Source: Limisphaerales bacterium
Lineage (GTDB): Bacteria > Verrucomicrobiota > Verrucomicrobiia > Limisphaerales > UBA11358
Reading direction: 5' to 3'
Assembly: GCA_003151855.1 (NCBI GenBank)
Contig: PLYV01000139.1
Location: forward strand, 1,558-40,049
Length of the DNA stretch: 38,492 bases
Of this stretch, positions 2,436 to 34,898 are shown one piece after another (positions within the stretch are counted from its first letter, which is position 1; every line of letters begins with the position of its first letter). A model generated the notes under the pieces. It was not told the origin of the DNA. It did no database searches and worked only from the letters and a program-made list of their open reading frames with translations. The position numbers were made by a program, and so were the translations under genes.

Positions 2436-3953
2436 ATGAACAAACTCGCCCAGCTTGACCAACGCTACGTCTGGCATCCCTTCACACAGATGCGCGACTG
2501 GCTGCGGCGCGAGCCGATTGTCATCGCATCCGGCAAGGGTGCAGTGCTGCGCGACGTTCACGGCAAGGAATACCTCGACGCCAATGCCTCCATCTGGACG
2601 AATCTCCACGGCCATCGCCATCCCAAGATCAACGCCGCCATCACGCAGCAGTTGAAGAAGATTTCCCATTCCTCCGCGCTCGGCTTTGCGAATGAGCCGG
2701 CGAGCCTGCTGGCAGAAAAGCTAGTAGGCGTCGCCAATTCAAAACTAAAAATTAAAAACTTAAAACTCGGAAAAGTTTTCTTTTCCGACGACGGCTCCAC
2801 CGCGCTCGAAGTCGCGCTCAAGCTGGCCTATGAGTTCACCCGGCGGACGCGCGGTTGGAGTTCAAGCTTTAGCTTGTCCGGGAACACGCTAAAGCGTGGA
2901 CTCCAACCCCGATTCCTCTCGCTCGCCGGCGCGTATCACGGCGACACCATTGGCGCGGTCTCCCTCGGCCACGTTGATCTCTTTCACAAGGCTTACGGCG
3001 GGATGCTCTTTGCCACCGACCAGGTGATGTCGCCCTATTGCTACCGCTGCCCGTTCAATCAGGCGAAGCCGGAACGTGCCGATGCGCGCAATTATCGCAA
3101 ATGTCATTGGGAATGTGTCGGCCAGGTGGAACAGAAATTTGCCGCGCAGAGAAAAAAGGGCAACCCCTACGCCGGCTTCGTGTTTGAGCCGCTGATGCAA
3201 GGCGCGGCGGGGATGATTCCGCAGCCCGCTGGCTGGCTGGCGCAAGTCACGCAAATCGCGCGGGCGCAGGGCGCGCTCTTGATTGCCGACGAAGTGATGA
3301 CGGGATTTGGTAGGACAAATTCTGTAGCGGCGGTCTATGACCGCCGTTCAGATGTTTTGAAAACCCACGACGGTCACAGACCGCCGCTACAACCGTTTCA
3401 GCATCTTTTCGCCTGCCAGCAGGAAAACGTGGTGCCGGATTTTCTGTGCGTGGCGAAAGGGTTGACCGGCGGTTATCTGCCGATGGCGGCCACGCTGACC
3501 ACGCAGCGCGTGTTCGATGCGTTCCTAGGCGAATACGAGGAATTCAAGACCTTCTTCCACGGCCACAGTTTCACCGGCAACCAGCTTGGCGCCGCCGCCG
3601 CACTTGCGAACCTTGATTTGTTGGCGACAAAGAACTCCGTGACGCAACGGGCAAAATTGCAGCAGCAGTTGCACGACGAATTGCAAACTCTCTGGGCGCT
3701 GCCGCAGGTGGGCGACATCCGGCAGGTGGGGCTGGTGGTGGGCGTGGAACTGGTGAAGGACTGGCGGACGCGCGCGCCGTTTGCGCTGCGCGAACGCGCC
3801 GGCATCCGCGTGTGCGAGGCGATGGCGCGGCGCGGCGTGCTGACGCGGCCCGTGGGCAATGTGATCGTGCTGCTGCCGCCGTATTGCACCACGCCGAAGC
3901 AGTTGCGGCAGATGGTGGCCGCGCTGGCGGCAACCGTGGCGGAAAGTTTTTAA
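2436..3953 (+). CDS. bioA: Adenosylmethionine-8-amino-7-oxononanoate aminotransferase (BioA) with three in-frame repeat inserts
   Basis: A class III PLP aminotransferase that converts 8-amino-7-oxononanoate to 7,8-diaminononanoate, usually with S-adenosylmethionine as amino donor. Evidence: the N-terminal YVWHPFTQM, the SDDGSTALEVALK phosphate-binding turn, GAYHGDTIGAVS, IADEVMTGFGRT with the PLP Asp, and VAKGLTGGYLP with the Schiff-base Lys near residue 341. The ATG at 2436 gives the usual MNKLAQLDQRYVWHP start; an upstream TTG at 2430 is less likely. At about 505 residues it is longer than the roughly 430-450 usual for the family. The excess is explained by inserts from repeats at 2741-2768, 2854-2907 and 3323-3391. 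The last lies between GFGRT and LFAC, beside the active site. All inserts keep the frame and the catalytic motifs are intact, so the protein is probably functional. Confidence 0.94.
   Translation: MNKLAQLDQRYVWHPFTQMRDWLRREPIVIASGKGAVLRDVHGKEYLDANASIWTNLHGHRHPKINAAITQQLKKISHSSALGFANEPASLLAEKLVGVANSKLKIKNLKLGKVFFSDDGSTALEVALKLAYEFTRRTRGWSSSFSLSGNTLKRGLQPRFLSLAGAYHGDTIGAVSLGHVDLFHKAYGGMLFATDQVMSPYCYRCPFNQAKPERADARNYRKCHWECVGQVEQKFAAQRKKGNPYAGFVFEPLMQGAAGMIPQPAGWLAQVTQIARAQGALLIADEVMTGFGRTNSVAAVYDRRSDVLKTHDGHRPPLQPFQHLFACQQENVVPDFLCVAKGLTGGYLPMAATLTTQRVFDAFLGEYEEFKTFFHGHSFTGNQLGAAAALANLDLLATKNSVTQRAKLQQQLHDELQTLWALPQVGDIRQVGLVVGVELVKDWRTRAPFALRERAGIRVCEAMARRGVLTRPVGNVIVLLPPYCTTPKQLRQMVAALAATVAESF
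2741..2768 (+). repeat. AT-rich repeat inside bioA, shared with an intergenic copy
   Basis: The 20-mer AAAATTAAAAACTTAAAACT at 2748-2767 recurs exactly, on the opposite strand, at 29352-29371 between rpe and the sensor kinase gene. In bioA it encodes NSKLKIKNLKL, a Lys/Leu-rich insert before GKVFFSDDGS. Its base composition is sharply different from the GC-rich gene around it. Confidence 0.8.
2854..2907 (+). repeat. 54-bp palindromic element (family A) inside bioA
   Basis: Second copy of the bioF element, with four base differences, in the same orientation and reading frame. It encodes WSSSFSLSGNTLKRGLQ between the YEFTRRTRG helix and RFLSLAGAYHGDT. The outer arms GTTGGAGT and ACTCCAAC are intact, and one extra flanking G/C pair (2853 and 2908) extends the stem. 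Confidence 0.9.
3323..3391 (+). repeat. 69-bp palindromic element (family B) inside bioA
   Basis: The arms TGTAGCGGCGGTCTATGACC (3323-3342) and GGTCACAGACCGCCGCTACA (3372-3391) pair at 19 of 20 positions around a 29-nt centre. It adds about 23 codons (VAAVYDRRS...GHRPPLQ) in frame. The other two frames of this strand meet TGA or TAG within the first 20 bases. Confidence 0.88.
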
Positions 3954-23864: not shown

Positions 23865-25346
23865 CTAGTCGTGCAGCAACGAAATGCCCAGCTTCAGAAG
23901 CTTTTGCACGTCGGCATCTGATTTCGCCTCGGCGTAAATACGCAACACCGGCTCGGTGCCGGAACCGCGCAACATCAGCCAGGTGGAGTCGGCGGCAATG
24001 AATTTCACGCCGTCGCGCGTCTCCATTTTCGTCAGGGGCTGGCGCAGGAGTTTCGCGGGCGGATTCGACCTCAATTTTCCCATGAGCTCGGCGCGTTGCT
24101 CCAGCGGGTAAGGCGCGTCGAACCGGGCGTAACGGTGCGGACCGAATTCCTTTTCCAGCCGGGCGTAGATCTGGTTCACAGAAACGAGCGACATCGCCAG
24201 CATCTCCAGCAGGAACAAACCGGCGGCCAGACCGTCACGCTCGGGAATGTGATTGGCAAAACCCACGGAGCCGCTCTCCTCTGCGCCGAACAGCGCGCCG
24301 GGCTTCATCAACTCCGGCGCGATATGGCGGAAACCGATGCCGACCTCGGTGAGCGGCAGGTTGTGCGCGGCGCAGAGCTTGTCCACGAGCGCGGTGGTGT
24401 TGAAAGTCTTGGTCACCGTCCCCTGCCCGCCCCGGTTGCGCACGAGATGATGCAGCAGCAAGGCGATGACCTGCTGGTTGGTCATCGGCGTGCCGCGCCC
24501 GTCCATCAGGCCGATGCGGTCGGCGTCGCCATCGGTGACGAGGCACAGGTCGTGCGGTTTTTTGCGCAGTTGCGCGGAGCCGAGAACGTAGTTTTTCGCA
24601 AGCGGCTCCGGGCAGATGCCGCCAAACAGAATGTCGTGCGCGCCGTTCAGCGTGGTGACAGTGCAATTGGTCTTGGCGAGCAGCGTTTCAAACACGCCCG
24701 CACCGACACCGAAGAGCGCATCGTGCGCGACGCGCAGCTTCGACTTTGCGATGAGCTTGAAATCCACCAGCCGCTTGATGGCGGCGAAGTGCGCGGGACG
24801 GAGATCGTGAATGTGGATTCGTTCCGGGAGCGCCGGCATCTTGCCGACCGCTTGGGCAAAACGCAACTTGCCGGCAGGGATGCCGGCGCTCCCAGCTTCA
24901 CCGTGCACCGGATTTTTATCCAACAAGGCTTCCACGGCGGCGCAATCTTCCGCGCTGCTGCTGCCGCCGAAATGGGATTTCAACTTGAAGCCGTTGAACT
25001 GCGGCGGATTGTGGCTGGCGGTGATCATCACGCCGCCGACGGCACCAAGCTGTTTCACCGCGAACGACACGCATGGCGTCGGCGTCGGCTCCGGCGTGAG
25101 GATGACTTCATAACCATTGGCGGCAAACACCTGCGCGGTGGTCTGCGCGAACTGCGGGGAAAGAAACCGGCGGTCGTAGCCGACCACAACTTTCAGATTG
25201 CGCCCGAAGATTTCGGAATGACGATTTGAAATTTCCAGCTTCCAAAAGTCCGCCGTGGCCTGCGCGACGCGGGCGACATTCGCAAAAGTAAAATCCTCGG
25301 CGATGACCGCGCGCCAGCCGTCGGTGCCGAACTTGATCTGCGACAT
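23865..25346 (-). CDS. Phosphoglucomutase/phosphomannomutase-family alpha-D-hexose phosphomutase with repeat inserts
   Basis: Interconverts hexose 1- and 6-phosphates. The four-domain signature is complete: FGTDGWRAVI at the N-terminus, the phosphoserine loop MITASHNPP (Ser111), the metal loop TDGDADRIG, the sugar-binding GAEESGSVGF and the phosphate-binding RGSGTEPVLR. Glucose versus mannose preference is not evident. Residues about 152-175 (GSAGIPAGKLRF...GKMPALPE) are encoded by a palindromic element at 24826-24893. Residues about 36-47 (KLEISNRHSEIF) may come from another repeat; both are in frame and outside the catalytic loops. The gene runs the same way as the downstream lyase gene's strand but has its own 70-bp flanks. 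Confidence 0.92.
   Translation of the reverse strand: MSQIKFGTDGWRAVIAEDFTFANVARVAQATADFWKLEISNRHSEIFGRNLKVVVGYDRRFLSPQFAQTTAQVFAANGYEVILTPEPTPTPCVSFAVKQLGAVGGVMITASHNPPQFNGFKLKSHFGGSSSAEDCAAVEALLDKNPVHGEAGSAGIPAGKLRFAQAVGKMPALPERIHIHDLRPAHFAAIKRLVDFKLIAKSKLRVAHDALFGVGAGVFETLLAKTNCTVTTLNGAHDILFGGICPEPLAKNYVLGSAQLRKKPHDLCLVTDGDADRIGLMDGRGTPMTNQQVIALLLHHLVRNRGGQGTVTKTFNTTALVDKLCAAHNLPLTEVGIGFRHIAPELMKPGALFGAEESGSVGFANHIPERDGLAAGLFLLEMLAMSLVSVNQIYARLEKEFGPHRYARFDAPYPLEQRAELMGKLRSNPPAKLLRQPLTKMETRDGVKFIAADSTWLMLRGSGTEPVLRIYAEAKSDADVQKLLKLGISLLHD
24826..24893 (-). repeat. About 68-bp palindromic element (family C) inside the phosphomutase gene
   Basis: GGGAGCGCCGGCATC (24826-24840) and GATGCCGGCGCTCCC (24879-24893) are perfect 15-bp inverted arms around a 38-nt centre. 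The translation GSAGIPAG...KMPALPE interrupts the region between domains 1 and 2. From memory, AGSAGIPAG-type peptides recur in unrelated proteins of such genomes. Confidence 0.85.
25209..25244 (-). repeat. Possible simple-repeat insert in the phosphomutase gene
   Basis: On the coding strand GGAAATTTCAAATCGTCATT runs into CCGAAATC and encodes LEISNRHSEIF, where homologues usually have a short linker before KVVVGYDRRF. The text resembles AT-rich intergenic repeat phrases, but no second copy is in this window. Confidence 0.35.
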
Positions 25347-29348: not shown

Positions 29349-29428
29349 GTTAGTTTTAAGTTTTTAATTTTAGGTTGGAGCCAGCAAAAGACAAAACTAA
29401 AACTCACAACTAAACATTAAAAACTAAC
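29349..29428. repeat. AT-rich imperfect inverted repeat between rpe and the sensor kinase
   Basis: Left arm GTTAGTTTTAAGTTTTTAAT near 29349 and right arm ATTAAAAACTAACTC near 29414-29428 form an imperfect palindrome. The kinase stop codon (29424-29426) lies within the right arm. The left part carries the same 20-mer, inverted, as the insert in bioA at 2748-2767. Confidence 0.75.
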
Positions 29429-34777: not shown

Positions 34778-34805
34778 AGGCTTTGGTCCTAAAGCCGTCT
34801 TCTAA

Positions 34806-34884
34806 ATCGTAATCCTAATCTTAATCGTAATCCCCGGGGAAGGGAGATCAGGATTATGATTACGATTACGATTCAGATTACGAT
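34806..34884. repeat. AATCGT-type imperfect inverted repeat
   Basis: Left arm ATCGTAATCCTAATCTTAAT (34806 onward) and right arm GGATTATGATTACGATTACG (34851 onward, continuing to 34884) consist of GTAATC/GATTAC units in opposite orientation, flanking CCCCGGGGA. It fills the gap between the GH43-GH16 and transporter genes. A transcript would form a long imperfect hairpin. Confidence 0.75.
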
Positions 34885-34898
34885 CAGGACTGGGGGCG

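Follow-up and report, generated by a model that had tools for sequence, protein, structure and literature searches.

A REPIN-like palindromic element residing in frame within a phosphohexomutase linker of an uncultured Limisphaerales bacterium

Palindromic repeats located inside bacterial genes have been documented for several kinds of elements. For GTAG repeats, intragenic REP dimers are most numerous in Opitutus terrae (Verrucomicrobia), dimers or groups, which encode 20-30 amino acids, make up more than half of the intragenic REP inserts, and two Xanthomonas species were found to carry different REPs at approximately the same site in recB (PMC3733652). Older still are the Rickettsia palindromic elements (RPE), in-frame palindromes whose host proteins stay functional (Ogata 2000; Claverie and Ogata 2003; both cited in PMC6649704 and PMC3733652). 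The locus described here lies in a DNA stretch of 38,492 nucleotides (hereafter the window), whose lineage, as read from the titles of close orthologues, is Limisphaerales (Verrucomicrobia subdivision 3). It consists of a palindromic element embedded in frame in a gene encoding a phosphoglucomutase/phosphomannomutase, an enzyme for which homologues were present in all 40 of the 40 genomes searched.

The palindromic insert and its host gene

The following features, given with their coordinates in the window, define the locus:

23865..25346 (-): phosphoglucomutase/phosphomannomutase gene hosting the element, 493 aa, uninterrupted (ORF, Pfam, structure match, homologues)
24915..25337 (-): PGM_PMM domain I, residues 4-144, on the 5' side of the insertion (Pfam)
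24492..24791 (-): PGM_PMM domain II, residues 186-285, on the 3' side of the insertion (Pfam)
24826..24893 (-): REPIN-like palindromic element, 68 bp, in frame (arm search, ORF, genome copies, fold, structural family model R2)
24879..24893 (-): left outer arm in gene orientation, GGGAGCGCCGGCATC, carrying the GGAG tag (repeat search)
24826..24840 (-): right outer arm in gene orientation, GATGCCGGCGCTCCC (repeat search)
24870..24876 (-): left inner arm, TGCCGGC (sequence and inner helix of the family consensus)
24842..24848 (-): right inner arm, GTCGGCA, imperfect (sequence and inner helix of the family consensus)

On the coding strand, the element extends from GGGAGCGCCGGCATCCCTGCCGGC to GTCGGCAAGATGCCGGCGCTCCC and encodes residues 152-174 of the mutase (GSAGIPAGKLRFAQAVGKMPALP), a peptide that reads GSAGIPAG...KMPALPE. 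The sequence-only reading of this DNA had proposed perfect 15-bp inverted arms placed between domains 1 and 2 of a phosphomutase, and both points were borne out. A repeat search of the window recovered the two outer arms, 15 nt each, 100% complementary and separated by 38 nt. The palindrome does not reflect chance, because the folding energy of the element as single-stranded DNA (-29.7 kcal/mol) is far stronger than that of shuffled sequences (-16.8 +/- 2.6 kcal/mol, z = -4.95), the element beating 200 of 200 shuffles. An Rfam search of the window returned no matches. The sequence KLRFAQAVGK inside the insert, which resembles LKFDEAVRAGK, was considered as a remnant of the ancestral linker; this was rejected, since the AAGTTGC motif beside the inner arm has a counterpart, GAGTTGC, in further family copies (e.g. 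L013).

The two Pfam domains lie on either side of residues 152-174, and the alignment of the mutase to its closest solved structure, 1tuo, splits into residues 3-144 and 178-485, the insert therefore occupying the interdomain gap. The AlphaFold2 model of the protein, based on 32 sequences, is confident (pTM 0.86, mean pLDDT 84), and its sole segment with a pLDDT below 50 spans residues 151-170. The fold is therefore predicted to be intact and the insert to be a flexible loop on it, with the reservation that a thin alignment of the insert would likewise lower the confidence of the model. Distant homologues have neither the arms nor the peptide: orthologues outside the genus, as well as many inside it, exhibit instead a short NPVRSLxFxEAVRAGKI-type linker. 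At another place in the protein, near position 308, the mutases of G001 (L067) and G042 (L114) display extra or altered in-frame residues (e.g. NRGSGREPALIPSEQKLSGLTSAVTGLRVVK) with no match to a repeat family.

A dispersed family, its RAYT linkage and its copies inside genes

The arms recur elsewhere in the genome, where the exact 15-mer of the outer arm was found 16 times (8 on each strand) and its reversed control 0 times. Relatives of the full element in the same genome reached a best E value of 2.9e-9 apart from the self-match, and the structural model R2 identified, among the matches listed, 36 both-strand matches corresponding to about 18 places. With both strands counted and among the matches listed, this model detected the family in 27 of the 49 genomes of the genus, with at least 40 places each in G042 and G040. 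Aligned copies of about 72 bp share a common plan, comprising the outer arm GGGAGCGCCGGCATC, the inner arm TGCCGGC, a variable spacer and then the mirror image. The family can be described as two inverted hairpins, each with a GGAG(CGC) head followed by the palindromic stem GCCGGC-ATCCT-GCCGGC, on the two sides of a variable spacer. Its consensus (GGGAGCGCCGGCATCCTGCCGGCGAGTT..AACTCGCCGGCAGGATGCCGGCGCTCCC) has the inverted hairpin pair and short spacer of a REPIN, and the family is dispersed and multi-copy as REPINs are; a short form of 29 bp also occurs (L007). Covariation supports the stem, with 6 pairs changed on both sides (0 of 500 shuffles as high) and 95% of the cells paired across the family alignment versus at most 51% when slid, the model structure having come from this same alignment, which favours the model. 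Of the 14 aligned copies, 13 have a GGAG head and one (L022) has GTAG, which places the family outside the GTAG REP superfamily and is a counterpoint to its assignment as a RAYT-linked REP, the described ones being GTAG-headed.

A link with a transposase gene was found in sister genomes. In G016, family copies are positioned at 384-473 and 1201-1276 of locus L184, which contains a Y1_Tnp ORF (237-1232) with the MPNHVHAL motif of a RAYT; the reading frame of this gene ends within the second copy. This RAYT has the flanking by matching REPs that characterizes a REPtron. Sister families, in the form of GGAGCGC-headed dimers with other stems, occur on both sides of the RAYT genes of G042, G044 and G047 (L223, L234 and L238), and two additional RAYTs (L219 and L221) have one GGAGCGC-headed dimer nearby. 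This combination of a constant head with RAYT-specific stems is the logic of REPs. Of the 30 other Y1-type loci covered by the first scan, none matched the family model, and no RAYT flanked by the mutase-element family was found in the element's own draft genome (69.7% complete), whose two Y1 transposase loci, considered as the driver, likewise gave no match to this model. A RAYT-like gene of the own genome with a weak Y1_Tnp match (L120) is flanked by several TTGGAGTGCGG...CGCACTCCAA repeats belonging to another GGAG-headed (GGAGTGC) family, and the RAYT genes at L223 946-1731 and L234 1000-1800 (-) contain an in-frame GGAGCGC-type copy in the middle of the transposase.

A size of about 72 bp, inverted ends and dispersal in many copies are also features of classical MITEs, moved by a DDE transposase and bordered by target-site duplications. 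This origin is improbable given the architecture of the repeats (two head-to-head hairpins, a variable loop and a GGAG head), the lack of a consistent target duplication in the copies inspected and the Y1/HUH nature of the RAYT genes with which the physical link was found. Counting against the REPIN reading itself, neither a clean target-site duplication nor a perfect empty site was seen at the mutase linker, where the flanking linker residues differ too.

The mutase genes of G000 and G004 carry inserts that share the same position, the same phase and part of the spacer. Their outer arms are 92-100% identical versus 73-76% for the gene flanks, a pattern that fits a shared insertion, independent insertions or conversion between copies alike. 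A nearest-copy test ended in a near tie (89.7 vs 89.6%), and a tree built to ask whether the two genomes share one insertion gave no resolution of that branching; it grouped G040, which has heptamers in the linker, with G042, which has an ancestral-type linker, as a supported pair (100/98), most other branches being without support. A single shared insertion is somewhat more likely. The high identity of the arms, together with a very stable hairpin, could also suggest that the insert is kept in the mutase gene for a function at the DNA or RNA level, such as a hairpin in the mRNA or a target site for a protein. Little credence can be given to this idea, since most orthologues are devoid of the element and have other linkers or repeats instead, the family occupies many unrelated genes and intergenic sites, and a recent insertion or conversion would also produce high arm identity.

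The sequence-only reading further held that residence in frame extends beyond the biotin genes and beyond one repeat family, and this was upheld. In the own genome, 9 of 15 copies lay in frame inside genes, as did 21 of the 85 examined overall, these copies having been chosen by score; the other genomes contributed 3 of 6 in G004, 4 of 18 in G040, 3 of 21 in G042, 1 of 10 in G022, 1 of 6 in G021 and 0 of 9 in those remaining. According to Pfam and NCBIfam models, the host genes encode PdxA, RibD, the CCA-adding enzyme, DapF, protoporphyrinogen oxidase, a GH43 protein, an NAD-dependent epimerase, a histidine kinase, an AddB-like nuclease, pyruvate dehydrogenase E1, a GlmS-like enzyme, a CofH/MqnC-type radical-SAM enzyme, OGG, PdxJ, an FtsK-like protein, a GH141-like protein and a beta-propeller. 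The inserts of the BioF and BioA genes belong to a family different from that of the mutase element. As with Rickettsia palindromic elements, the palindromes are in frame within enzyme genes that are intact, as judged here from the genes themselves. A simple codon-score scan saw no copy interrupting a gene out of frame. The RibD gene of the own genome (L024 748-2160, minus strand) combines the REPIN-like element with two further stretches resembling translated heptamer arrays (QIADGRWQMGK and SAIGNRQLAIN).

Genic copies display a frame bias. Among 17 independent ones, the 3' arm is read as MPALP in 11, as DAGAP in 6 and in the third frame (CRRS) in 0 (p = 0.007), while the phases of the 5' arm are mostly GSAG-type (10), followed by GAPAS-type (5) and RERxHP-type (2) (p = 0.04); the null was provided by the open frames of non-genic copies, and both tests rely on one small, score-selected set. 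Such a bias is what a filter acting on the protein would leave. A precedent exists for palindromic elements that are bypassed in translation, in yeast mitochondria (as cited in PMC6649704), and the element could similarly be transcribed and then skipped by the ribosome or cut from the mRNA, leaving a protein without the peptide. This is very improbable for the mutase, as the frame is open across the insert, its net length is frame-keeping and frame usage is biased in peptide terms, as translation would predict. The idea that the stretch is an ordinary evolved linker, palindromic by accident, can practically be dismissed: the length and sequence of the linker vary among mutases of the genus in any case, but about 18 places, in intergenic DNA and in unrelated genes, have the same palindrome, which folds more strongly than all 200 shuffles and is missing from most orthologues.

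Overall, the element is one copy of a REPIN-like repeat, most likely a non-autonomous single-strand transposon copied by a RAYT into the mutase linker and then filtered at the protein level. A REP-associated HUH/Y1 transposase of the host lineage would have acted in trans, and the inserted copy would have given the phosphohexomutase a flexible loop at its surface, about 23 residues long, where domain I is joined to domain II. Protein-level selection would then have eliminated the copies that were out of frame and those having their arms in the charged/Cys frame. Its GC-rich arms are free of stops in any frame, its net length leaves the reading frame unchanged and extra residues are tolerated by the linker, which would explain why this copy persisted. 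The family would be mobile, and the decorated enzyme presumably retains normal activity.

Several other repeats were observed in the window. GTTGGAGTTCAAGCTTTAGCTTGT... palindromes reside in frame at 1714-1767 and 2845-2916 in BioF-like and BioA-like ORFs, respectively (WSSSFSLSRNTLKRELQ and WSSSFSLSGNTLKRGLQ), and their family also occurs in the CCA-adding enzyme gene of G016 (L244). The same BioA-like ORF contains in frame, at 3323-3391, a GTAG-headed TGTAGCGGCGGTCTATGACCGCCG dimer (AVYDRRSDVLKTHDGHRPPLQ) of another repeat family. Long degenerate inverted arrays were found at 34796-34889 and 29349-29428, the first of which seems to be made of 7-bp units like those of the linker arrays.

Two linkers with several repeat families

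Across the genus, GGAGCGC-type inserts in the mutase linker are of four kinds. G000 and G004 carry the element described above, G017 a GGAGCGCCGATC dimer, G052 half of a GGAGCGCCGGGCACC-type dimer and G056 a short GGAACGCCGAGCATTGCTCGGCGCTCC form. Degenerate 7-bp tandem arrays were detected in frame in at least 10 of the 39 mutase linkers measured (L041, L042, L045, L098, L099, L100, L104, L108, L111 and L113; lag-7 test p < 0.01 each, uncorrected for 39 tests). Their units vary by species and include CCGAACT, CATCGGC, CAATCGC, GGCAGAT and GCATCAC, among others.

The CCA-adding enzyme gene was compared at loci L239-L268, the repeat families there being named by eye from sequence. The enzyme has a continuous LFxPPHAARGL motif, without insert, in G013, G014, G059, G003 and G005; G054 and G060 show it with a single substitution. 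Between LFxPP and AARGL, the mutase-element family is found in G000, G004 and G042, a GTTGGAGTTCAAGC palindrome, shared with the BioF-like and BioA-like genes of the window, in G016, a GGGCGGGCAG-type palindrome in G056, where it is GTAG-headed, and in G006, inverted GGATTGG-type arrays in G015 and G010, and a CTCACCCCGGCCC-type palindrome in G044, G053 and G001.

Passive tolerance of the mutase and CCA-adding enzyme linkers explains this occupation by multiple families. A bolder proposal, which we regard as doubtful, is that these linkers act as permanent 'sockets', where unrelated repeat families would land in frame again and again, one after another occupying and replacing each other in different species. 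The occupants would be GGAG REPINs, GTAG REPs, GTTGGAGTTC palindromes, CTCACCCCGGCCC palindromes and degenerate heptamer arrays. If true, this would go beyond passive tolerance and imply that insertion is targeted or that one repeat replaces another at identical codon positions, the heptamer arrays being mobile themselves. The domain I-II linker of the mutase and the LFxPP-AARGL junction of the CCA-adding enzyme offer a natural experiment in linker insertion. Within one genus, the same two positions are either short or empty or differently filled with repeats, and the conversion of mobile palindromes into protein, with its filtering by frame and residue, is therefore directly measurable.

Comparison with described repeat systems

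A single in-frame insert is a known kind of thing, as in-frame REPs were already published for a cultured verrucomicrobial species (PMC3733652). The repeats described here resemble the GTAG REPs of that study in being short tagged palindromes, often arranged as inverted dimers and linked to RAYTs, but differ from them by the GGAG(CGC) tag, by their occurrence in an uncultured Limisphaerales genus, and by single linkers that several repeat families have taken up in different species, the site being empty or short in further ones. With REPINs and RAYTs (PMC3116915, PMC8266576), they share the two inverted REP hairpins separated by a spacer, the RAYT gene flanked by matching REPs and the presumed mobilisation in trans by a Y1/HUH RAYT. 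In contrast to those systems, the head is GGAG and not GTAG, and the genic share in the own genome is large (9 of 15).

The likeness to Rickettsia palindromic elements lies in palindromic repeats residing in frame within protein genes. The family works like RPE without being a member: it comes from a different phylum, a transposase link was seen here, and the two are likened by description, not by sequence. Heterocystous cyanobacteria carry STRR heptamer tandem repeats, degenerate 7-bp units spread through their genomes; unlike these, the heptamer arrays described here also occupy the linker of a protein, in frame and with a unit that differs by species. As far as found in open-licence papers, the new features are the GGAG tag combined with RAYT linkage in this lineage, the measured frame bias and the two multi-family linkers within a single genus. 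The systems already described are thereby joined by a REPIN group from uncultured Limisphaerales that has a GGAG tag and RAYT linkage.
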